DNA of 64,000 nt from positions 1,922,001 through 1,986,000 of the forward strand of contig NC_017068.1 of NCBI RefSeq assembly GCF_000284095.1, in the 5' to 3' direction. A program made the position numbers and the translations under genes. Below the pieces are notes generated by a model. That model was not told the origin of the DNA. It ran no database searches and was given only the letters and a program-made list of their open reading frames with translations. Positions within the stretch are counted from its first letter, which is position 1, and the number at the start of each line of letters is the position of its first letter. Source of the stretch: Selenomonas ruminantium subsp. lactilytica TAM6421 (GTDB lineage Bacteria > Bacillota > Negativicutes > Selenomonadales > Selenomonadaceae). Shown here one piece after another: positions 52,761 to 64,000 of the stretch.

Positions 52761-53726
52761 TTATAATTTGCTCAAAATAAACTCTGCCTGTCCCTGCAGC
52801 TGATATGTTCCTAAACCTGCGGGCACAAAGGCGGTCGAACCCTTGGACAGCGTCAGCTTCTCCCCGCCGCCGCTGAGTTTGACAGCCCCCTCCAGCACCG
52901 TCAGGCAATGAAAGGAATCCATGCCAGTATGCATAGCACTTTCGCCCTGCAAGCTGCTATGGTAAACCTTGAAATACTCGCAATCTGCCAAAAGCTTCAC
53001 ATCCATATGCGGAAAGATATCAATGTCCATCAATGTCTGGGAAACCTGCGGCGGCAATTCCAAGCGCGTGACATCCAAAGCCTTGTCGATATGCAGCTGC
53101 CGCGGCTGGCCATCAGCACCGACACGGCCATAGTCGTAAACGCGATAAGTCAGATTTGAACTCTGCTGCACCTCATAGATCAGGATGCCGCTGCCAATCG
53201 CATGGAGCGTGCCTGCTTCGATAAAGAACACATCGCCTTTATGCACGGGCACCTTATTGCAGACCTCCAGCAGGGTATTGTCCTCAATGCGCTGCTGGAA
53301 CTCTTCCTTGCTGATTTCTTCTTTGAAGCCATAGATCAGACTGGCACCTGGCTCGGCATCCACCACATACCACATCTCCGTCTTGCCCTGCTCGCCTTCC
53401 ACACGCCAGGCGTATTCATTATCGGGATGCACCTGCACGGACAAATCGCCCTTGGCATCGATGAACTTGATCAGCAGGGGAAAATAATCAAGCTTTTGCG
53501 CCTTGTCCCCCAGCATTTTCTTTCCTTCACCCGTGAGCAGCTCCGCCAGTGTCTTTCCCTTATGCTCACCGCTGTCTACAATGCTCAAGCCGGCTTCATG
53601 GCAGGAAAGCTCCCAGCTTTCCGCCACAATATCCAAATCAGATGCCTTGCCATATTCCTTTTTCAAGCGATTGCCGCCCCAAAGATAGTCCTTCAAGGGA
53701 GCCTTCAACAACATCGGTTTCCACAT
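52761..53726 (-). CDS. manA: Mannose-6-phosphate isomerase, class I
   Basis: A 321-residue zinc cupin enzyme that interconverts mannose-6-P and fructose-6-P. 'LKDYLWGGNRL', 'AESWELSCHEAG', 'PLLIKFIDAKGDLSVQVHPDNEYA' (Gln/His zinc ligands), 'GKTEMWYVVDAEPGA' (Glu ligand) and 'FFIEAGTLHAIGSGILIYEVQQSSNLTYRVYDYGR' blocks (His ligand, catalytic Arg) are all visible; the protein is of the short Firmicute type. It lies 29 bp after a GntR regulator that is paralogous to the one in the mannanase operon. It would channel mannose-6-P from mannan breakdown into glycolysis. Confidence 0.96.
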   Translation of the reverse strand: MWKPMLLKAPLKDYLWGGNRLKKEYGKASDLDIVAESWELSCHEAGLSIVDSGEHKGKTLAELLTGEGKKMLGDKAQKLDYFPLLIKFIDAKGDLSVQVHPDNEYAWRVEGEQGKTEMWYVVDAEPGASLIYGFKEEISKEEFQQRIEDNTLLEVCNKVPVHKGDVFFIEAGTLHAIGSGILIYEVQQSSNLTYRVYDYGRVGADGQPRQLHIDKALDVTRLELPPQVSQTLMDIDIFPHMDVKLLADCEYFKVYHSSLQGESAMHTGMDSFHCLTVLEGAVKLSGGGEKLTLSKGSTAFVPAGLGTYQLQGQAEFILSKL

Positions 53727-53755: not shown

Positions 53756-54466
53756 TTAACGAATGCTGACCGAACGAAAATTGCTGCGGTCACCACGATG
53801 GCGGGCAATCGAATATTCAAAAGGCCGGCCATCATCCAAAAAAGCCACCTGTGTCACTTCCAAAAGCGGCAGCACCCCTTCAATCTGCAAATGCTCACGC
53901 TCCTGCTCTGTGGGCATTACAGCTCGCACCATGCGATGCGCCGACTGGATTTTATACCCCAGCCCATTTTCGATATAACTGTAAATCGAAGTTTCCAAGT
54001 GCTGACGTTTGAGCCCATTTATCAACTGGATTGGCATCTGCGTATATTCGATGACAATGGGTTCATCATCCAATCGTCTCACCCGGATGATGTCATAAAC
54101 AAAATCATCCGTTGTCAACTGCAATTTCGCAGCTACCTCTGCCGTAGGATGAATGATTTCAAAGCGCAGGAGCTGCGAATCCACTTTTCGATTCTTGAAA
54201 GTAGCCGCAAAGCCCAGGAATTGATTGGCCATGCTCAGTTCCTTCACATCTTCATCCTTCAGGGATTTGACAAAAGTGCCAGAACCGCGGCGTTTCACCA
54301 CCAGCCCCTGTTTGACCAGTTCATCTACAGCCCGCTTGATGGTAATGCGGCTTACACCATACTGCTGGCACATTTCTTTTTCCAGTGCCAGCTGCTCTCC
54401 CGGCGTATATTTTCCCTGTTGTATATCCGCTCTGAGCGATTGGGCTATTTCCTCGTACTTCAACAC
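53756..54466 (-). CDS. GntR-family regulator with UTRA domain (copy 1, manA operon)
   Basis: A ~236-residue HutC/TreR-type regulator. The winged HTH ('GEQLALEKEMCQQYGVSRIT' followed by IKRAVDELVKQGLVVKRRGSGTF) precedes a UTRA effector domain ('DDFVYDIIRVRRLDDEPIVIEYTQMPI', 'RPFEYSIARHRGDRSNF'). UTRA domains bind sugar phosphates or similar ligands. The start is a GTG at 54466, nine bases after AGGAGG; an ATG at 54490 would place that ribosome site inside the gene. It is a clear paralogue of the regulator at 55187, and it heads the gntR-manA-holA operon. Confidence 0.9.
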   Translation of the reverse strand: MLKYEEIAQSLRADIQQGKYTPGEQLALEKEMCQQYGVSRITIKRAVDELVKQGLVVKRRGSGTFVKSLKDEDVKELSMANQFLGFAATFKNRKVDSQLLRFEIIHPTAEVAAKLQLTTDDFVYDIIRVRRLDDEPIVIEYTQMPIQLINGLKRQHLETSIYSYIENGLGYKIQSAHRMVRAVMPTEQEREHLQIEGVLPLLEVTQVAFLDDGRPFEYSIARHRGDRSNFRSVSIR

Positions 54467-54498
54467 GACTGCTGTCCTCCTTGCTTGCATATAAATAT

Positions 54499-54541: not shown

Positions 54542-55170
54542 TTATTCAAGTCTCAGATTATTGATATAAACTGCACCTTTATAATTCGTAAGATAGCCGA
54601 CAAGATTCCATTCAAAATGACCGATATCTTCCTTGACCGGCTTATCCAGCAACACCCTCACTGAAGCTTTTTCAGCTTTGTTCCTGGCACGGCCTTGGCC
54701 CTGGCCACCCCCAGGTCATCCACAGGCTGATTGATCACTTCACTGCCCTTGACATTTGACGCATAGAGCTTGACTTTGAGTGCAGCATCCCCCTTCAGCT
54801 GGCTGGCATCATAATAAAAATCAAAAGACACGGCCTTGATGCCATTACCTGCCTGAATGGGGGAACTGCTGTTGACATTCATGTCCATCAGCTTGACTTC
54901 GCTCCAACTCTGCTCCTTGTCCTCACTAAAATCCACATCCAGCTTCAAAGAACCACCAAACTCTGGCGAAAATGCAGTCTCTGCATCACCGCTATAAGCA
55001 TAGCCGCCCAGATAGCTCCAGCCGCCAATGTCCTGAGAAAAATCCCATGCCTTAATGGGTACAGCTGCTTCCACTGCTGGCATAGGAAAGACTGTGGTTC
55101 CTGCCAGCGGTGACAATATCAATCCAGCTCCCAGCATACATGTCAACAAACCTTTACCTGCAAATTTCAT
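54542..55170 (-). pseudogene. Secreted CBM27-like mannan-binding protein, frameshifted
   Basis: The first frame (55170 to 54658) encodes a signal peptide (ending near AVEAA) and a beta-sandwich carbohydrate-binding domain ('IKAWDFSQDIGGWSYLGGYAY', 'FGGSLKLDVDF', 'VSFDFYYDAS'). It stops right after GTKLKKLQ. In the -1 frame the domain resumes without a gap as ASVRVLLDKPVKEDIGHFEW then NLVGYLTNYKGAVYINNLRLE and stops at 54542. One extra A in the five-base A run at 54668-54672 would restore about 209 residues. The pattern resembles CBM27/CBM23 mannan-binding modules without a catalytic domain. It could be a true mutation, a sequencing error or -1 ribosomal slippage at G-AAA-AAG. Confidence 0.75.
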
Positions 55171-55186: not shown

Positions 55187-55906
55187 TCATCTAACTGATA
55201 TCGCCTTGAATTTCATCTTATCGCCCCGATGTCGTGACAGGGAATACTCGAAAGGACGTCCATCTGACAGGAAAGCCACTTGTGCTACCTCCAGCAATGG
55301 CATCCTCTCGTCTATTCCCAGCAGCTTCTGTTCTGCAGCAGTGGGCATAACCGCCCGCACGGTACGATGAGCCGACTGGATATGCAATCCCAAAGTTTCC
55401 TCTATATATCGATAAATGGAATCCTGAAGGTTGCCCTCCTTCAGTCCTGCAATCAGATCGATGGGCATCTGGGTGTACTCGATGACCACAGGTCCCCCGT
55501 CAGCACAGCGCAAACGCTGGATATCATAGACGAAATCATCTTCCGACATTCCCAGCTGCACAGCTACCTCTGGGACGGGATGGACAATGGCAAAATGCAG
55601 TACCTCCGTATGCACCGGATGTCCCTGATAATAATCGGAAAAACCGCCAAACTGCTCGGAACGGCTAAGCTTATGCATGGCATGGTCATCCAACGATTTC
55701 ACGAAAGTACCTGCCCCTCTCCGTTTTACCACCAGGCCGCCCCGTACCAGTTCATCTACAGCTCTCTTGATGGTAATGCGGCTGACCGAAAATTCCACGC
55801 ACAAGTCCCGCTCCAGCGGCAACTGCCCACCTGGCTGGTATTTGCCCTGACGGATGGCCTGCCGAAGGATATCAGCCACCTGCTGATATTTCGCCCGGCT
55901 GCTCAT
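55187..55906 (-). CDS. GntR-family regulator with UTRA domain (copy 2, mannanase operon)
   Basis: A 239-residue HutC-type regulator closely similar to the one at 53756. Both share 'VSRITIKRAVDELV', 'LVVKRRG-GTFVKSL', 'DDFVYDI', 'VIEYTQMPI', 'IQSAHR-VRAVMPT' and 'DGRPFEYS--RHRGD'. The HTH is at about residues 25-75 and the UTRA domain at 95-235. Its start overlaps the GH26 stop as ATGA, so it is translated with the mannanase. It is the best candidate for control of the divergent promoter pair at 60.7 kb, while copy 1 may control manA. Confidence 0.9.
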   Translation of the reverse strand: MSSRAKYQQVADILRQAIRQGKYQPGGQLPLERDLCVEFSVSRITIKRAVDELVRGGLVVKRRGAGTFVKSLDDHAMHKLSRSEQFGGFSDYYQGHPVHTEVLHFAIVHPVPEVAVQLGMSEDDFVYDIQRLRCADGGPVVIEYTQMPIDLIAGLKEGNLQDSIYRYIEETLGLHIQSAHRTVRAVMPTAAEQKLLGIDERMPLLEVAQVAFLSDGRPFEYSLSRHRGDKMKFKAISVR

Positions 55907-57246
55907 TCAACGCTGCCTGCTTTCAGCTTCTTATAATCTGTATTGCCATCGGCAAAAATACTGGACGGCTCATTATAGAAGTCCACAAATTCATTGATCA
56001 TCTCATGCCCACGTTTATCGCTGACCATATAAGGCATGAAGAAATTATGCTCCTGCTTGTCAAAATTGGCCCAGGACATAAAATAGGAGGCTTTATGTGC
56101 CCGGCAAATAGCGGCAGCTTTAGAGAACCATTGCTTATCCACATTGCCAGCCACGGAAAGACTGCCATCCTTGCGCACACCAAGCTCCGTCACGGCAATG
56201 ACCTTATGACGCTCCCGGCCAAGTTTTTCCATCACTGCCAGTGTCTTGTCCAGATTCTGATACCATATACCGCTTTGGTCATCATCATAAGTATCCACAC
56301 CGAAAATATCCGCATAATCATCGCCAGGATACCGGTCTAAATAACCGGCCTCATTATCAAAGGGACCATTCGGCGAATACGCATAGAGGAAGTTATGTAC
56401 CCCCTTCACATCCCGCAGATATGTTGTCGTATATTGCCAAAGGGACTGAAAATCCTTGCTGCTGATATTGCGTCCTCCCCACCAGAACCAAAAGCCATTC
56501 TGCTCATGGAATGGACGGAAAATTACCGGTATATGCTTGTCCTGCAACCGCAGGGCAAAATCGGCGACCATATCGAGATAGGCACGATAGACTTCATTCA
56601 GATCCCCGTCCGGCAGGATCCGCTTGCCAACTTTCCCTGTCAACACATTAGGACTGTAACCCTTGAAATCATACATACCATTGATTTTCGGCTTTTTCGC
56701 TACCAAATCAAAATTAGGAATATGCATGGACAAAGTAAGGATGGCCCCCTGCTTATCGGCCTGTTCTGCAATCTCCACCAAGCGGCTGGTCAATGTGATA
56801 CCAGCTGCCTGCTCTGCAGCCGTAAGCTCCAATTCATCTCCGGTCAGGGACAACGAATCCAGCCCCACTACTCCGGCAATGCTGCCTGTCACATCCTTGC
56901 AATCAGATTCGCTGCCGCTGTCCACCCGGAACATCTTGTGATGCGTGTCATTCTGATGGCCGTAAATGACTTTTCCTGCCTTAGGAACTGCCAGAAGATA
57001 CCGATAAAGTCTGGCCGCCTCCGGAGTCAACTGTTTATCCACCACTTTGTTCGTCAGAGGCGTCAGATTTTCTACTTCAGCCGTTGTCAGCGCTTCCTTT
57101 TGGGCTTTAGCATTATCCGGCAGCACACTGCGCTCCACATACGCTTTATCCTGTGGATTATCCAGTACACTGGCTTGTGCCACACCAGCCAGCAAGGGCA
57201 TACTCAAGGACACCCCCACAGCCATAGCCAACAATTTTTTTCTCAT
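55903..57246 (-). CDS. Secreted beta-mannanase (GH26)
   Basis: A 447-residue exported endo-beta-1,4-mannanase. A signal peptide (MRKKLLAMAVGVSLSMPLLA..., cleaved near AQAS, ~26) is followed by a GH26 TIM barrel. 'GKVIYGHQNDTHH' is the GH26 N-terminal motif. Glu248 in FRPFHEQNGFWFWWG is the expected acid/base and Glu354 in VIAVTELGVR the nucleophile. 'DIFGVDTYDDD' carries a further active-site block. It has no C-terminal anchor or SLH domain, so it is periplasmic or released. It lies between a GH1 phospho-glycosidase and a GntR regulator in the PTS operon. Confidence 0.93.
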   Translation of the reverse strand: MRKKLLAMAVGVSLSMPLLAGVAQASVLDNPQDKAYVERSVLPDNAKAQKEALTTAEVENLTPLTNKVVDKQLTPEAARLYRYLLAVPKAGKVIYGHQNDTHHKMFRVDSGSESDCKDVTGSIAGVVGLDSLSLTGDELELTAAEQAAGITLTSRLVEIAEQADKQGAILTLSMHIPNFDLVAKKPKINGMYDFKGYSPNVLTGKVGKRILPDGDLNEVYRAYLDMVADFALRLQDKHIPVIFRPFHEQNGFWFWWGGRNISSKDFQSLWQYTTTYLRDVKGVHNFLYAYSPNGPFDNEAGYLDRYPGDDYADIFGVDTYDDDQSGIWYQNLDKTLAVMEKLGRERHKVIAVTELGVRKDGSLSVAGNVDKQWFSKAAAICRAHKASYFMSWANFDKQEHNFFMPYMVSDKRGHEMINEFVDFYNEPSSIFADGNTDYKKLKAGSVE

Positions 57247-57267
57247 CAATAAACATTCCTTCCTCTA

Positions 57268-58668
57268 CTACTCAGCAAAACCATTATGAGCGGACAATTC
57301 CCGGAACCAATAAGCAGACTTCTTCAACGTCTTCTGTTGATTGGTCAGATCCAGCGCAATCAGACCATAGCGATTCTTATAGGCATTGGACCACGACCAG
57401 CAATCAATTGGTGTCCAAAGATGATAGCCGAAACAGTTGGAGCCTTCAGCAATGCCCCGATGCAGCCACTCCAGGTGCTCTTTTATAAAGTCAATCCGGT
57501 AATCATCGGCAATCATGCCATCTGCCTGCCGGAATTTTTCTTCACCTTCCACGCCCATACCGTTTTCGGATACATACCAGGGAATATTGCCATAATTGTC
57601 CCGGATGTTGATAGCAATATCGTAGATCGCCTGCGGATAGATTTCCCAGCCACGATAAGGATTCATCCGTCTGCCCGGCATTTCATAAGGAGCAAAATAC
57701 TTCTCCGGCATCCAGCCCTTAGAATCATCAAAAGCCGTCTGTTCCTGAGCACGGAAAGGCTGATAGTAGTTCACGCCCAAAAAATCAACGGTATTTTTTT
57801 GAATCAAGGCCAGTTCCGCCGGTGAACTTTCCCAAAGCACATTATCCTTGCGCAGGATTTCCACCAGCTTCGGCGGGAAAACACCTTTGACTGCCGGATC
57901 AAGGAAGGCCTTGTTCTTAAACGTTTCGGCAAAATCCGCTGCCGCCATGTCTTCTGCTGACTCTGAACGCGGATAAGCAGGTGTCAGGTTGATCACAATA
58001 CCAATACGCCCACCCTCTTGTTGGCACGCCGCCTGACGAAAACGCTCAATCGCCATCGCCGAAGCCAGATTGAGATTATAAATGCACTGCACGGCCTTTT
58101 TCCCATCTACCTGCAACGGATAATGGAACTGATACAGATACTCGCCTTCTGCCACTACCATCGGCTCATTAAATGTTGTCCATTCCTTGACTCTGTCGCC
58201 AAAGAGCGCAAAGCATTTTTCCGCAAAGCCAGCAAAAAGTACAGCCACCTTTTTATTCGTCCAGCCGCCATATTTCTCGTATAGTGCATAGGGCAGATCA
58301 AAATGATGCAGGTTCAGGATGGGACGAATGCCCTGTCGCAGAAATTCATCGATGACTTCATTATAAAAACGCACACCATCTGCATCCGTTTCACCGGTTT
58401 CCAAGTCCTTTATGAGACGTGACCATTGAATGGACGTCCGGACAGAATTCAAGCCAGCCTGTTTCATCAGGGCAATATCCTGACGGAAATCATTGTAGAA
58501 ATCAGAAGCAACATTGGGGCCCACACCTGCAAAAAAAGCCTCTGGATCATGATCGAACCAATAGTCGAAGATATTCCTGTGTGTCTTGTGGAACCGCCCC
58601 TCAGACTGAGGGCCTGACGTAGCCGCCCCCCACCAGAAATTTTCTGGGAATTGATACAGCTTGGACAT
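57268..58668 (-). CDS. 6-phospho-beta-glycosidase (GH1)
   Basis: A 466-residue cytoplasmic GH1 enzyme. Acid/base Glu168 is in WTTFNEPMV and nucleophile Glu368 in YVSENGMGV. The C-terminal 'DCWSWSNAYKNRYGLI' loop with Lys and Tyr is the phosphate-binding pattern of 6-phospho-beta-glycosidases, and 'WGAATSGPQSEGR' starts the barrel. It follows the PTS IIA gene by three bp. Given the GH26 mannanase next door, its natural substrate may be phosphorylated mannobiose rather than cellobiose-6-P, which is inference. AAGGGG precedes the ATG. Confidence 0.94.
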   Translation of the reverse strand: MSKLYQFPENFWWGAATSGPQSEGRFHKTHRNIFDYWFDHDPEAFFAGVGPNVASDFYNDFRQDIALMKQAGLNSVRTSIQWSRLIKDLETGETDADGVRFYNEVIDEFLRQGIRPILNLHHFDLPYALYEKYGGWTNKKVAVLFAGFAEKCFALFGDRVKEWTTFNEPMVVAEGEYLYQFHYPLQVDGKKAVQCIYNLNLASAMAIERFRQAACQQEGGRIGIVINLTPAYPRSESAEDMAAADFAETFKNKAFLDPAVKGVFPPKLVEILRKDNVLWESSPAELALIQKNTVDFLGVNYYQPFRAQEQTAFDDSKGWMPEKYFAPYEMPGRRMNPYRGWEIYPQAIYDIAINIRDNYGNIPWYVSENGMGVEGEEKFRQADGMIADDYRIDFIKEHLEWLHRGIAEGSNCFGYHLWTPIDCWSWSNAYKNRYGLIALDLTNQQKTLKKSAYWFRELSAHNGFAE

Positions 58669-58671
58669 AGA

Positions 58672-58995
58672 TTACCCCTTCTTCAAGTCTTCATACAAAT
58701 CAACCATCAGTTTGGCCATGTCCCGCACGGCCAGCGATGTCATAAAATGATCCTGGGCATGTATCAGCAGGATGCTTTTCTCAACCGGCTGCCCATCACA
58801 TTCCGCGCTCATCATCGCCGTCTGGATATCATGAGCCTTGCCGATTTCCTGACCAGCTGCTTCAATCGATTTTCTGGCCTTTTCAATATCATGGTCTTGG
58901 GCCAATACCTGTATCGCTTCAATCACCGCTGAACGCCCCGTCCCCGAATGCAGGATCAGCTGCATGGATTGTTCTACTGTCTTTTCGTCCATCAT
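58672..58995 (-). CDS. PTS lactose/cellobiose-family IIA component
   Basis: A 107-residue trimeric helical IIA that relays phosphate from HPr to IIB. The active His79 is in LLIHAQDHFMTS, the family motif. The first ATG overlaps the IIC stop as ATGA, and a second ATG follows at once (58992), so either may be used. It is third in the IIB-IIC-IIA order. There is no fusion to other PTS domains. Confidence 0.94.
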   Translation of the reverse strand: MMDEKTVEQSMQLILHSGTGRSAVIEAIQVLAQDHDIEKARKSIEAAGQEIGKAHDIQTAMMSAECDGQPVEKSILLIHAQDHFMTSLAVRDMAKLMVDLYEDLKKG

Positions 58996-60314
58996 TCTTC
59001 CTCCGTATCCTTGATTTTATTCCCGGCAATGACAAATGGTGCATAGATGCAGATATCCATTGCCAGCCACACCAGCTGCAAAATGCCGCCAGCCAGCGAT
59101 CCTGTACCGATTGTGCCGCCAAAGAACAATGGCATCGTCCAGGGTACAACATATTTGAAGATAGGTACAATCCCTGCCGAAACAGCCAGCCAGCCGACAA
59201 TCGTATTCGCTAATGGTGCCAGGATATAAGGAACCAACAAAATCGGATTCAAGACAATCGGCAAACCAAAAGCAATCGGCTCCTGAATATTGAAGAGCAT
59301 GGCCGGGAACCCCACCTTGGCCACCGCCCGCCAGCTTTCACGCCTGGAAAAAAGGAAGATGGCAATAAGCAGCCCCAGTACATGCATGAGTCCCGCTTCA
59401 AAAAAGCCATTGGAGAAAATATATGCCGCATCACCGGACTGATTGGCCAGCTGCGCCGGCATATAGACCATATTCTGGATGGCTGCGGTTACATTATGGC
59501 CATGAATGCCAAACCACCAGAAAAACCAGACAATCCCTTGATAAAGAATCGAAAAGCCAATCCCCTGCGAAAAGCCCATCAGCGGCGCCTGAATCAATGC
59601 ATAGATCAAATCATTGAGCGCCTTGCTGCCCATAAACTCCATTTGGGATAACAATGTTGCAAAAAGAGTAAAACTGAACAGTACGATAAACACCGGCATC
59701 AGCACCGCAAAGGAATTAGCCACCGCAGGCGGCACCGTTTCCGGCATCCGGATGGTCAGTTTCTGATTCTTCGACAGATGGATAAACATCTTAGACGAAA
59801 GCGTTGCCACAATGATAGCTGTAAGCACGGCCTTGTTGCCAAAATAGGACAAATCAAAGGCTGCTATATTGCCAACACTTTGCGGCGTGACAATGATAAA
59901 AGCACCTAAAGCCGTCAGCGCGTTAGCAAAGGGATCTCCGCCCCATATGGTACCCAGCCGATAGGCAAAGGCACCCACCAACAGGAAGGAAAACACCCCA
60001 AAGCCAACGGTCACGACATTATTGCACAGCCCCTGAATCACCTGCATGCCGCGTACGAATTGTGAGTTTTTGTACGCATCGCCAGCAGTATCCAGTCCCG
60101 TGAATGCAGCACCAAGATTCAAACCATTTGCGCCCATTACAGTTCCCCAGGGATCTAAAAGCACCCACTGAATGATACCGAAAAAGGACCCTACGATAAT
60201 GAATGGCAGCAGCATGGAAAATGCATCACGCATGGCCAATAGATATTTGTTGCCGGAAATACGGGCAGCCAGTGGCATCATCACCCGTTCAAAACTGGAA
60301 ATCACTCCACTCAT
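58992..60314 (-). CDS. PTS cellobiose-family IIC permease
   Basis: A 440-residue sugar channel of the lactose/cellobiose PTS family with about ten membrane helices. 'KYLLAMRDAFSMLLPFIIVGSFFG', 'GAFIIVTPQSVG', 'YQGIVWFFWWFGIHGHN' and 'FNIQEPIAFGLPIVLNPIL' (substrate-binding His and Glu loops) are diagnostic. It imports beta-linked disaccharides while IIB phosphorylates them. The operon context (GH26, ManA) suggests beta-mannobiose, though cellobiose cannot be excluded. It starts seven bp after the IIB stop. Confidence 0.94.
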   Translation of the reverse strand: MSGVISSFERVMMPLAARISGNKYLLAMRDAFSMLLPFIIVGSFFGIIQWVLLDPWGTVMGANGLNLGAAFTGLDTAGDAYKNSQFVRGMQVIQGLCNNVVTVGFGVFSFLLVGAFAYRLGTIWGGDPFANALTALGAFIIVTPQSVGNIAAFDLSYFGNKAVLTAIIVATLSSKMFIHLSKNQKLTIRMPETVPPAVANSFAVLMPVFIVLFSFTLFATLLSQMEFMGSKALNDLIYALIQAPLMGFSQGIGFSILYQGIVWFFWWFGIHGHNVTAAIQNMVYMPAQLANQSGDAAYIFSNGFFEAGLMHVLGLLIAIFLFSRRESWRAVAKVGFPAMLFNIQEPIAFGLPIVLNPILLVPYILAPLANTIVGWLAVSAGIVPIFKYVVPWTMPLFFGGTIGTGSLAGGILQLVWLAMDICIYAPFVIAGNKIKDTEEE

Positions 60315-60321
60315 CTGTGTC

Positions 60322-60630
60322 TTACTCCTTCCCCATCAGCTGCAGTGCTTTCGCCAGCACCTTATCTCCGCGGATCATGCCATAATCCTGCATATTGATG
60401 ACTTCAACCGGACAACGGCCAGCAACGATCTTTTCTACATCCCCCTTCATATGGCGGATCTGAGGCCCCAAGAGTACCACATCTGCATCAGCTGCCCGCT
60501 GATCCAGAACCTCGACGCTGAATGCCTCGATATGGACATCCGACAGAGACTTAGCGGCAGCAGCTTCCTGCATCTTCTTAACCAGGATTGAAGTAGACAT
60601 ACCGGCATTGCAGACTAAATAAATGTTCAT
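60322..60630 (-). CDS. PTS lactose/cellobiose-family IIB component
   Basis: A 102-residue IIB domain that carries phosphate on Cys7 in 'VCNAGMSTSILVKKM', the family phosphocysteine loop. 'DVVLLGPQIRHM' and 'VINMQDYGMIRGDKVLAKAL' are typical. CAGGAGG lies before the ATG. It is the first gene of the operon IIB-IIC-IIA-GH1-GH26-gntR-CBM, read from a perfect consensus promoter. Confidence 0.95.
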   Translation of the reverse strand: MNIYLVCNAGMSTSILVKKMQEAAAAKSLSDVHIEAFSVEVLDQRAADADVVLLGPQIRHMKGDVEKIVAGRCPVEVINMQDYGMIRGDKVLAKALQLMGKE

Positions 60631-60694
60631 GTTAATTCCTCCTGAACAAAATTGATATAGACAGTTTTTTCTTGTTCTGTCTTTCTACCTCTTC

Positions 60695-60723
60695 ATTATA
60701 GTATTGGTAAACTCCTTTGTCAA
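60695..60723 (-). promoter_or_regulatory. Perfect consensus promoter of the mannan PTS operon
   Basis: Minus-strand TTGACA (60718-60723), 17 bp, TATAAT (60695-60700). The -35 box is the outer end of the left arm of the 19-bp inverted repeat. Confidence 0.9.
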
Positions 60724-60811
60724 TAAAAGATATAACTTTTATTTTTATCTTATCTCATTATTGCAGTATAGAATATTATCTTTTTTTCTTTTGTTATATC
60801 TTTTATTGACA
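60718..60811. promoter_or_regulatory. Paired operators: perfect 19-bp inverted repeat embedding both -35 boxes
   Basis: TGTCAATAAAAGATATAAC (60718-60736) and its exact complement GTTATATCTTTTATTGACA (60793-60811) are separated by 56 AT-rich bases. Each arm includes the -35 hexamer of one of two divergent promoters. Such exact duplication implies a shared regulator binding site; the local GntR/UTRA proteins are the natural candidates. The left arm also continues into a local palindrome AATAAAAG-ATATAA-CTTTTATT. Confidence 0.8.
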
Positions 60812-60834
60812 TAAATATGTTTTATAACTATAAT
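60806..60834 (+). promoter_or_regulatory. Perfect consensus promoter of the SLH porin operon
   Basis: TTGACA (60806-60811), 17 bp, TATAAT (60829-60834). It mirrors the PTS promoter exactly in elements and spacing. The leader is about 78 nt. Confidence 0.9.
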
Positions 60835-60918
60835 GAGAGTTACAAAGCAAGGGAAACCAATTGCAAAACCGCGGAACTACGCATATTATTCCCTTGCCAT
60901 GAGATAGGAGGAATAGGA

Positions 60919-62487
60919 ATGAAACAGAAGAAACTAGTGCCTCTGATGCTAGCACTAGCGATGAGCACTTATCCACTGACCGTTGGTGCCGCGGATAAGA
61001 ATGACATGTTTGCCGACCTGCCGGCCAATCATTGGGCCTACAAGGCTGTAAGCGAACTGAATGCAGCCGGCCTTATAACCGGCACCGGCCGTGAACGCCT
61101 CGAAAGCAATCAGCTCGTAACCCGCTATCAGATGGCCGAATTGGTAGCCAGTGCCATCGCACATCAAAATCAGGCGGATCGCCCACAGCAAAAAAACATC
61201 GCACAATTGAAAAAAGAATTCCAGCAGGAAATTGCCACCATAGAATCATTGGGACAGCGTATCAGCCAGCTGGAACATAAGACCAAGGATAAGTTTTCCC
61301 TCCACGGGCATTTCCAGCAAAGTATCGAGCATCAATATCATAAAAACGGCGCGGTTTCCAACTGGTGGGCCAAGGAAATCTATCTGAACCCTGCCGCGCA
61401 GCTCCCCGGAGGCTGGCAGTTCAAAGCACAATTCGTCACCAAGATGGGTTCCGACAAAAGCAATGGCTGGAATCAGGAAGAACTCATGCATGGTCAATTA
61501 TATAACGGCGGCAATAGCCGGGATGAAATCATGCGCCCTGACTACTATTATTTGGAAGGGAATCTGGGCAAGACCGGCCAGTTCATGAAAATCGGTGACT
61601 TCCAGCCCTGGGTACAGGCAGGATATGTCATGGGCGCCAACATACAAGGCATTTCTCTGGAACATTGGGGCAAGGGATACAATACGCACTTCTTTGCCGG
61701 ACGACTGGATGTTTCCAATAATGATCTGGCCATCGGTGCCAGCGCCAATTACGATAATGCTGCCGGTGGCTGGTTCCCTTCTCTTTCCCAACCCTGGAAC
61801 GACAATGTCCGTGCACACGAAGACTACCGCATTGTCAACAATGCCGCCTCCCACTGGCAGCCAGCACTTTCCCGCGATGGTGTCACGCCCTTGTCCGAGC
61901 AGGAGCAGCAGGAAGCCCTTGCTAATGGGGGCACTGGCAGTGACAATGCCCATGCCGGGCTGCAAGATCCATTTCATGATGGCAAAGATACCCGCAAGAC
62001 CGTATATGCTTTTGTCATTGACAAGACTTTTTCCAAGCGCCTGGACAGCAGCCTGGGTTACTATCGCTACAAATCAGCGGCCTATAATCGTAAGCCCCTG
62101 CACATCGGCGCTGCCACGCTCAATTACAAATTAGTACGCAATCTTAATCTGCAGGGCATCTATGCCTTTGGCAGCCAGCATGGAGCCAATAGCCATGACA
62201 AAGGTTATATGGTCGATCTCATGTTCCATGGCAATCCCTGGATTCCCAATGACCGTGCCCATTATTTTGGTGCCTATATCGGCTATCATTATCTGGCTCC
62301 GGATACGTACATCAAATGCGGTTATGGCGATGATATCGAAAAAGGACAGAAAGGACTGGCCCTCGGCATGTTCTACAATTTCACAGCAAATATGCAACTG
62401 GCAGTAAAATACGGCCGTGGTCATTCCCTGACCAATCATAATCTTTTCCGAGAAAAATTCTATAGCTGCTTCTCCGTCTTCTTCTAA
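60919..62487 (+). CDS. SLH-domain outer-membrane porin 1
   Basis: A 522-residue exported protein. A signal peptide (ending near TVGAAD) is followed by one SLH domain ('MFADLPANHWAYKAVSELNA' and 'GLITGTGRERLESNQLVTRYQMAELV', about 30-85), a coiled-coil linker ('LKKEFQQEIATIESLGQRISQLEHK') and a C-terminal beta-barrel with alternating strands. The SLH domain should bind polyaminated peptidoglycan while the barrel sits in the outer membrane, the OmpM-type design of Negativicutes. AGGAGG lies before the ATG; codons upstream from 60817 overlap the promoter. Divergent control with the mannan PTS suggests oligosaccharide uptake. Confidence 0.87.
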   Translation: MKQKKLVPLMLALAMSTYPLTVGAADKNDMFADLPANHWAYKAVSELNAAGLITGTGRERLESNQLVTRYQMAELVASAIAHQNQADRPQQKNIAQLKKEFQQEIATIESLGQRISQLEHKTKDKFSLHGHFQQSIEHQYHKNGAVSNWWAKEIYLNPAAQLPGGWQFKAQFVTKMGSDKSNGWNQEELMHGQLYNGGNSRDEIMRPDYYYLEGNLGKTGQFMKIGDFQPWVQAGYVMGANIQGISLEHWGKGYNTHFFAGRLDVSNNDLAIGASANYDNAAGGWFPSLSQPWNDNVRAHEDYRIVNNAASHWQPALSRDGVTPLSEQEQQEALANGGTGSDNAHAGLQDPFHDGKDTRKTVYAFVIDKTFSKRLDSSLGYYRYKSAAYNRKPLHIGAATLNYKLVRNLNLQGIYAFGSQHGANSHDKGYMVDLMFHGNPWIPNDRAHYFGAYIGYHYLAPDTYIKCGYGDDIEKGQKGLALGMFYNFTANMQLAVKYGRGHSLTNHNLFREKFYSCFSVFF

Positions 62488-62541: not shown

Positions 62542-64000
62542 ATGAAAAACAAACAACTAGCGCTTGCCGTCTGTGCTCTGCTGCTCTCTGCTGCACCTGT
62601 CACCCAGGCTGCTGAAAACCCACTCTTCCAGGATGTCCCCCCCAACCACTGGGCTTATGAAGCCGTGACTAGTTTGGCAAAAGATGGGATTATCACCGGC
62701 TATAGCGATGGCAGTTTCCAGGGAGAAAAACTGATCACACGCTATGAAATGGCACAAATTGTAGCCAATGCCCGCACACATATGGACAAGGCTTCCCCTG
62801 ATGACAAACAGCTGATTGAAGAACTGTCCGATGAGTTCCACAATGATCTTGATGCTTTAGGGGTGCGCGTGCAGAAGCTGGAACGGAAAGTGGACAACGT
62901 CCGCCTCACTGGCTCCTTTGCCCAGAAGTACAACAAAGCACATCATCAGGGCATGGAGAATACCAAAGGCAACACTACATCTTACAAGTGGGAGAAGGAA
63001 TTGGATTTGCACCTGGATGCGGATGTCCCCAAAACCAATATCACCTTCCACAGTAATTTCAAGACCACCTTCCGCGCCGATAACAGCAGCGGCTTCAACA
63101 GCGAAGAAGAATCCAAAGATACCTGGAACGGTGGCAACGAGCGCCGGAACACCATGCGGCCGGAAACCTATTATGTTGAAGGCCCACTTGACAAAACCGG
63201 CATTCAGGCCTGTTTTGGAGCTTTCATCCCCGATGCTCAGTCCGGCTTTGTCAATCATGCGGCCATGAAAGGTCTGAGCTTTTCCCACGAGAGCAAAAAA
63301 TACAAGCTCACCCTCTTCGGCGGTCGTCTGGATGTAAAAGATACGGATATGGATGCCACCGAAGGCACCTATACCCACAACCTGACCAATGCAGACATAG
63401 ACTGGGATGGTCCGAAGGAACTTGTCTCACAGACAGCCGATAAATATGTCCAGAAAGTCTACTATAAAAAAGATGCTTATACATCCACTGACAATACTGC
63501 TGCGGCCAACGATTTTGCCCGGCATTCTGCGGTAAAAAAAACCGGCAGTGACCAACCCTATGTGCTTCAGACTGCGACCAGTACAAACAGTGACTGGAAT
63601 TATGATTGGGACAATGCCATCATCGAAGCACAAAATACCGTAGACAAAACCTACTATGCTACCCGGCATAAATCCCTTTACGGTGGCACTTACAGCCGTC
63701 AGCTCACCCCTGCCCTCAATGCTTCCCTAGGCTATTATCGCTACAAATCTGCCGCATATGACAACAGTGCCCTGAATATCGGTGCCCTGACCGCCGATAT
63801 CCGTCTTTCCCCTAAAATGAATCTCCACAGTACCTATGCACACGGCAGTCAGAAAGGCCACAACGATGCCTGGACGGCAGAATTGCAATTCAACGGTGCA
63901 CCAGATATGGACAGCAGAGACAAGCATCGCTTTGGTTATTATCTGGCCTACCGCTACCTTGCCCCTGATGCCCTGATCCGTACCATCTATGAAGACGGTG
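62542..64000 (+). CDS. SLH-domain outer-membrane porin 2 (3' end cut off by window)
   Basis: At least 486 residues; the C-terminus is beyond the window. A signal peptide (MKNKQLALAVCALLLSAAPV..., ending near TQAAE), an SLH domain ('LFQDVPPNHWAYEAVTSLAK' and 'GIITGYSDGSFQGEKLITRYEMAQIV'), a coiled-coil ('EELSDEFHNDLDALGVRVQKLERK') and a beta-barrel. It shares 'LGYYRYKSAAY' and the general plan with porin 1, so the pair arose by duplication. It starts 54 bp after porin 1 with AAGGAGGA upstream and no terminator between, so the two are one operon. Confidence 0.87.
   Translation, partial: MKNKQLALAVCALLLSAAPVTQAAENPLFQDVPPNHWAYEAVTSLAKDGIITGYSDGSFQGEKLITRYEMAQIVANARTHMDKASPDDKQLIEELSDEFHNDLDALGVRVQKLERKVDNVRLTGSFAQKYNKAHHQGMENTKGNTTSYKWEKELDLHLDADVPKTNITFHSNFKTTFRADNSSGFNSEEESKDTWNGGNERRNTMRPETYYVEGPLDKTGIQACFGAFIPDAQSGFVNHAAMKGLSFSHESKKYKLTLFGGRLDVKDTDMDATEGTYTHNLTNADIDWDGPKELVSQTADKYVQKVYYKKDAYTSTDNTAAANDFARHSAVKKTGSDQPYVLQTATSTNSDWNYDWDNAIIEAQNTVDKTYYATRHKSLYGGTYSRQLTPALNASLGYYRYKSAAYDNSALNIGALTADIRLSPKMNLHSTYAHGSQKGHNDAWTAELQFNGAPDMDSRDKHRFGYYLAYRYLAPDALIRTIYEDG

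Follow-up and report, generated by a model that had tools for sequence, protein, structure and literature searches.

The divergent promoter region described here is, in our view, very probably the control region of a mannan or glucomannan divergon, in which a HutC-type GntR regulator occludes the -35 boxes of two promoters until an inducer releases it, whereupon both operons are transcribed together. The operator, the promoter geometry, the conservation, the gene context and the inventory of regulators can all be read directly from the DNA, and the best explanation for them is a GmuR-like mannan repressor system whose operator departs from the published HutC consensus (GWYATRWC versus GTMTAKAC). 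A HutC-type mannan regulon is known; what appears to be new is the altered operator, which would join porin-like genes to a PTS operon.

The window, by which we mean the whole stretch of 64,000 nucleotides that was analysed, carries the following genes around the divergent promoters:

52761-53726, minus strand: ManA, class I mannose-6-phosphate isomerase (TIGR00218 above cut-off)
53756-54490, minus strand: GntR2, GntR HTH and UTRA domains, HutC type (PF00392, PF07702)
54658-55170, minus strand: 170-aa protein with a signal-like N terminus (no Pfam match)
55187-55906, minus strand: GntR1, GntR HTH and UTRA domains, HutC type (PF00392, PF07702)
55903-57249, minus strand: GH26 mannanase-type enzyme (PF02156)
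57268-58668, minus strand: GH1 enzyme, probably a phospho-glycosidase (PF00232; under the NCBIfam equivalog cut-offs)
58672-58995, minus strand: PTS IIA, lactose/cellobiose family (PF02255)
58992-60314, minus strand: PTS IIC, lactose/cellobiose family (PF02378; TIGR00410 above cut-off)
60322-60630, minus strand: PTS IIB, lactose/cellobiose family (PF02302)
60919-62487, plus strand: SLH-domain porin-like protein 1 (PF00395; presumed barrel), its start set at 60919 behind AGGAGGA and not at the mechanical 60817
62542-63999, plus strand: SLH-domain porin-like protein 2, which runs off the window (PF00395; NCBIfam por_somb below cut-off)

The gmu operon of Bacillus subtilis encodes IIB, IIA and IIC components, a GH1 enzyme, a mannose-6-phosphate isomerase, a GH26 enzyme and a fructokinase, GmuE; here, the PTS IIBCA, GH1, GH26, ManA and GntR genes of such a system are all present. 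CBM27 is a mannan-binding module, and the homologue of the 170-aa protein in a related locus, L044 (53%), is a CBM27 protein (labels beginning with L for loci, G for genomes and C for contigs are our own). On this gene content we read the locus as a gmu-like mannan or glucomannan utilisation locus. An RNA element in place of the operator was considered and set aside; Rfam on positions 60000-61500 gave two matches, both under their gathering scores, and the leader of the porin mRNA shows no unusual fold (z -1.36).

The promoters and the arms that hold their -35 boxes are as follows:

60695-60723, minus strand: promoter of the PTS operon, exact TTGACA-N17-TATAAT
60718-60736, plus strand: arm A, the 19-mer TGTCAATAAAAGATATAAC, which holds the -35 box of the PTS promoter
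60793-60811, minus strand: arm B, the same 19-mer inverted, which holds the -35 box of the porin promoter
60806-60834, plus strand: promoter of the porin operon, exact TTGACA-N17-TATAAT

A preliminary description of this DNA had reported two exact consensus promoters and a pair of exact inverted 19-bp arms, 56 bp apart and each ending in a -35 box, and all of this is present; the promoters point outward, away from each other. In the 3.63-Mb genome the arm occurs at two places only, both of them here, when up to three mismatches are allowed, while the pattern read backwards gives one chance match and 100 shuffles of the window gave a mean of 0.00 matches at the same threshold. The promoters as such are not rare, because TTGACA-N16..18-TATAAT has 57 matches in the genome (reversed pattern, 0); they are ordinary strong promoters, and the unusual part is the arm that they have in common. 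Six of its 19 bases are the -35 box itself, and CTTTT stands 1-3 bp before TTGACA in only four of the 57 consensus promoters, two of which belong to this region.

As we read the sequence, the arm falls short of the whole operator: it takes in the middle and the promoter-proximal half of a longer palindrome, AATAAAAG-WYATRW-CTTTTATTGACA, together with the -35 box. The arms had been called a 19-bp operator; their exactness stands, but each covers the -35 box and roughly two thirds of an operator. Likewise, the 19-mers are identical, as had been said of the regulatory arms, but the operators to which they belong are unequal, the porin-side one being without its distal AAAA half. The two predicted cores are:

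60725-60740, minus strand: predicted PTS-side operator core, AAAAGTTATATCTTTT (forward reading AAAAGATATAACTTTT)
60789-60804, plus strand: predicted porin-side operator core, TTTTGTTATATCTTTT

The PTS-side core is a palindrome with one mismatched pair, scores 25.7 of 26.9 against a position weight matrix (PWM) to whose training set it belonged, and is the sole match without mismatches to AAAAGWYATRWCTTTT in the genome. In the porin-side core (PWM score 10.0; proximal half 13.5, distal half -3.4) the proximal half is intact and the distal half degenerate, AAAA being lost and G-N6-C kept. The palindrome extends beyond the arm, imperfectly, on the PTS side only, and because one half of the porin-side operator is degenerate its affinity may be low. 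A PWM scan of the window found no second operator before GntR2/manA.

Elsewhere in the genome, searching for the operator with three mismatches was uninformative (270 forward versus 293 reversed-pattern matches), and with one mismatch it gave three places versus 0 for the reversed pattern; near the two one-mismatch sites beyond the window (L070, L093) there is neither a query gene nor a TTGACA promoter. A relaxed composite of operator and promoter occurs at five places, two of them within the window, and no mannan gene was seen by eye in the 330 bases read at each of the other three (L126, L129, L130). At L129 (C1:2561640) a near-consensus promoter would give a short transcript containing a tiny hydrophobic ORF, which we take to resemble a type I toxin-antitoxin module.

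The preliminary description had staked its reading on conservation of the arms in related genomes, and they are conserved. Thirty-seven loci were gathered by relatives of the IIC protein and the window genes mapped onto them; the 320 bp upstream of IIB could be read in 30, the others being L060 (no upstream sequence) and L056, L057, L059, L065, L068 and L069 (no IIB found). An operator-promoter unit precedes IIB in 24 of these 30 loci, the window not counted, although such counts are not independent, since the loci, about a dozen lineages by eye, include near-identical assemblies and overlap with the genomes searched below (identical proteins). The unit consists of a core, AAAAG-WYATRW-CTTTT, then 1-2 bp, TTGACA-N17/18 and a -10 box, with the distal half sometimes worn; the core is perfect (AATAAAAGATATATCTTTTATT) in L035, L054, L058 and L063. 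At IIB the unit is missing from six readable loci (L045, L047, L049, L050, L062 and L064), and the IIB site of L049 lies 22 bp from a weaker -35 box.

Two arrangements among these loci are of separate interest. In two species of Propionispira (L054 and L058, with cores at 1147 and 6529, respectively) a perfect 62-bp palindrome is centred on the IIB operator and carries a copy of the -35 region on either flank, with a good -10 box on one side only. In L033-L038, the loci closest to the window, the mirrored operator arms are kept and the divergent gene differs; in L033 and L036, as in L143 and L145 (genomes G020 and G017), it encodes a CE2 carbohydrate esterase and not a porin. Set beside the window, L033-L038 suggest gene exchange around a kept control region.

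The element also precedes other genes of these loci. A PWM built from ten distinct IIB cores, applied with a score cut-off of 14 to the 37 loci (617,776 bp), gave 52 sites, whereas three first-order Markov simulations averaged 1.0. Twenty-four of them are the IIB units and 28 lie elsewhere. Four of the 28 are still upstream of IIB (L044 at 9537, L047, L049 at 2143 and L063 at 9466), and 15, counted by eye, have a promoter 7-10 bp downstream that leads into another mannan-locus gene, namely porins (L043, L044, L049, L055, L056, L058), IIC (L049, L056), GntR (L058, L066), CBM27 (L044), GH5-CBM27 (L058) and CBM/GH26 genes (L040, L052, L066). The remainder have no evident target, some being within genes, and no explanation was found for the L036 site at 1011. 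When the best promoter per site and strand is taken at up to two mismatches, 42 of 51 promoters, window included, have the operator centre at 9 or 10 bp upstream of TTGACA, and the core ends 1-2 bp upstream of that hexamer. Among 40 distinct oriented sites G-4 is kept in 30 and C+4, six bases away, in all 40, the latter figure being biased by selection of the set on its proximal half.

Across 189 genomes of the family, the composite TATCTTTT-N1..3-TTGACA-N16..18-TAT gave 50 rows, or 49 distinct places, in 29 genomes, and the reversed pattern gave 1. Mannan-locus genes follow at 36 of the 49 places (IIB 20, SLH porin 7, GH26 5, CE2 2, CBM-like 1, GH1 1); at five there is no recognisable gene, though the contig bears mannan genes, and eight have no match to any of the 14 query genes. 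The bare 16-mer, tried with one mismatch, matched 49 of 121 family genomes, mostly as noise outside mannan loci, and because 24 of the 30 loci that it returned have no mannan-locus gene, against six that do, only the composite of operator and promoter is specific. Porins carry the unit even when they do not adjoin PTS genes, which supports co-control of porins and PTS. Joint control of the two had been proposed at the outset, and it gains comparative support from a unit that precedes genes of all four kinds, PTS, porin, mannanase and esterase.

The genome search found no UTRA-domain proteins besides GntR1 and GntR2, both of them encoded in this locus. The winged HTH and UTRA domains of the HutC subfamily are above cut-off in both; no named HutC equivalog (TreR, LSA1692, PhnF, HutC and others) is above its NCBIfam cut-off, the best scores being 146.1 bits versus a cut-off of 275 (LSA1692) and 144.7 versus 211.95 (TreR). 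Over the HTH part the two proteins share 46 of 67 residues, and over the remainder 93 of 167; their recognition helix, SRITIKRAVDELV, is identical and their wing, KRRG.GTFVKSL, is near-identical. This fit favours the GntR pair, which had been put forward earlier, as the probable regulators. GntR1 forms a well-supported clade that, among the loci and genomes examined, holds only the window and close relatives (L033, L034, L036, L037 and L038, which come from the same genomes as the five GntR1 matches).

In NagR (YvoA), Arg48 at the start of the recognition helix contacts G-4 and Arg38 contacts G-5 (PMC4333415). We placed these residues on the related GntR proteins by our own alignment of 52 HTHs, of which 51 are readable and one is truncated. 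The Arg48 place is Arg in all 51; at the Arg38 place 43 have Lys, four Thr and four Arg (Arg in GntR1 and Lys in GntR2 of the window); these residues would fit the kept G-4 and the A at -5. HutC HTH position 39 is most often Met and correlates with the base pairs at the operator centre (PMC4494728); by our mapping 46 of the 51 have Ile there and five have Val. The Val rows (L013, L014, L045, L047, L050) are three distinct proteins of one clade, to which L063 and L067, with Ile and the operator, belong as well. L045, L047 and L050 have the PTS, no operator at IIB, and SRVTIKRAMD in place of SRITIKRAVD, which is suggestive only of an operator switch with Val at position 39.

Binding, repression as opposed to activation, the identity of the inducer, the acting regulator, porin function and the change in expression are what we infer from these features, as follows. 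A predicted operator for HutC-type GntR repressors is centred 9 bp upstream of each TTGACA, and the two outward-facing, sigma-70-type consensus promoters would drive the PTS and porin operons. A repressor dimer (GntR2, GntR1 or both) would cover the G-N6-C core, the proximal half of which adjoins the -35 box, and would thereby block RNA polymerase; perfect promoters with an operator in this position fit repression by occlusion. A phosphorylated or free mannan or glucomannan oligosaccharide would bind the UTRA domain, causing the dimer to leave. The PTS-glycosidase-mannanase operon and the two SLH porins would then be transcribed together, and outer-membrane entry and inner-membrane uptake would rise together. 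The observation in the preliminary description stands, and its interpretation is partly supported and mostly right in direction.

It is a substantial possibility, though not the one we favour, that only a GntR2-type protein uses the operator while GntR1 regulates something else or nothing. The operator is indeed present in relatives that have GntR2-like proteins and no GntR1, but the identical recognition helix and near-identical wing of GntR1 speak for a shared site. Cooperation between the two operators, through a DNA loop or a side-by-side complex, seems unlikely. The centre-to-centre distances lie near whole helical turns (64 bp or 6.1 turns in the window, 43-44 bp or 4.1-4.2 turns in L033-L038, 45 bp or 4.3 turns in L044, and 45 bp in L043), yet the pair in L058 is 110 bp apart, or 10.5 turns, L049 has a single operator with consensus promoters on both sides, single-operator promoters are common and the independent spacings are few.

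Some class II activators have their site directly upstream of the -35 box, and a regulator centred near -45 could recruit polymerase in the same way. The core does end 1-2 bp upstream of TTGACA, and of its two halves the promoter-proximal one shows the stronger conservation, in a set that was selected on that half. Activation is nevertheless improbable, as 30 of the 42 promoters with 9-10 bp spacing are, by eye, exact TTGACA-N17-TATAAT, which should need no activator, and BguR, the operator of which overlaps a -35 box, is described as a repressor (PMC3585215). Least credible, and barely worth entertaining, is the idea that the arms, with no dedicated repressor to serve, form an AT-rich UP element or come from duplication of a promoter; the arms are AT-rich and adjoin the -35 boxes, but CTTTT before TTGACA is as scarce in this genome as noted above, and the operator-promoter element is tied to mannan genes across genera.

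Our preferred reading, repression by HutC-type GntR proteins, has precedents. The glucomannan operon gmuBACDREFG of B. subtilis is described as induced by cellobiose and mannobiose (PMC3585215), and the present system resembles that of GmuR in combining a GntR-type regulator with PTS and glucomannan genes. In contrast to it, there are two regulators here and a divergent SLH porin-like operon, which a one-membrane cell such as B. subtilis would not need, and the predicted Bacillales GmuR site, tAAATGTaTAGACAttTa (PMC3585215), is not what is conserved here, differing in its centre and inner bases. BguR of Streptococcus pneumoniae represses by occlusion, as promoter truncation showed, from a 20-bp palindrome that overlaps the -35 box of a PTS operon; deletion of half the operator derepresses, and the authors found one target operon only (PMC3585215). 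The predicted operator here similarly lies beside the -35 box of a PTS operon, whereas the BguR site, AAAAATGTCTAGACAAATTT, has a normal HutC core, GTCTAGAC. With the dre sites of NagR, which in their native form are imperfect palindromes (PMC4333415), ours shares the half-site positions G-4 and C+4 six bases apart, but NagR also reads G-5 by Arg38, and here the consensus has A at -5 and 43 of the 51 readable proteins have Lys at that place. The HutC motifs compiled by Suvorova et al., 2015 (PMC4494728) are likewise palindromic and stand as single or double sites in divergons. Their consensus, NyGTMTAKACNy, with its GT-N4-AC core, is absent here; the site is G-W-Y-A-T-R-W-C, the central bases being AT and not TA, with A/T at -3. 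In the open PMC literature, subscription journals being mostly outside it, we found no paper on a mannan regulon or GntR operator of Selenomonas or Negativicutes, and none of the titles and abstract starts listed for S. ruminantium with mannan, mannanase or phosphotransferase concerned this regulon.

For the two-membrane Firmicutes of rumen and gut, these data offer a testable regulon and operator for mannan use. One DNA element ties porin-like genes to the PTS operon, an issue that does not arise in one-membrane Bacillus, and through the probable shared repressor site the cell would unlock its outer door and its inner transporter at the same time. The site also widens the range of HutC operators by one variant, in which residues and bases can be matched coherently, and the regulon points to candidate small RNAs in relatives. 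An extended reading, to which we give only tentative credence, is that two paralogous repressors with the same helices and diverged sensors act on a re-specified HutC core as a two-signal gate, and that some relatives add a mannan-induced, C-rich small RNA that pairs with Shine-Dalgarno sequences.

C-rich small RNAs of Firmicutes can pair with Shine-Dalgarno sequences. At the five composite places that lack a recognisable gene, which fall into two genus-level groups (g46 with G068, G114 and G132; g15 with G112 and G035), the unit leads into an ORF-less stretch rich in C and poor in G. We regard these stretches as candidate mannan-regulon small RNAs, which could, by analogy, pair with the Shine-Dalgarno sequences of competing genes:

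L167, 806-985 (G068:C72), with L168, L169 and L039/L040/L042: C-rich stretch and hairpin
L044, 4950-5160, minus strand: C-rich stretch and hairpin
L049, 2600-2777, minus strand: C-rich stretch and hairpin

In L039, L040, L042, L044 and L049, where these contigs recur among the 37 loci, the 83-156 nt before the hairpin have C 0.29-0.34, G 0.09-0.13 and CCC(C) runs; in L049 the script chose the second hairpin, and its 144 nt take in the first. The hairpin is GC-rich and the T tract that follows in that direction is short (TTT or TTTCTT). For two of the three kinds, g46 and L049, the hairpin may instead, or in addition, terminate transcription of the facing manA or IIB gene, because by eye a longer T tract lies on the opposite strand. 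Intergenic 90-nt windows of this composition, by thresholds set after the stretches had been seen, number 52 of 5526 in the loci, and 16 of the 52 lie in these stretches and their L041 counterpart. Rfam gave none above threshold on the stretches and two sub-threshold matches (L157, L167), while on the same loci it found 5S rRNA elsewhere in L171. The genome of the window has no match to the C-rich RNA beyond the operator itself. The g46 version has full-length matches of 91-100% identity in four of 189 genomes (ten have any match, the others being short), and in the L041 counterpart, one of the four, the operator and -35 box are worn.
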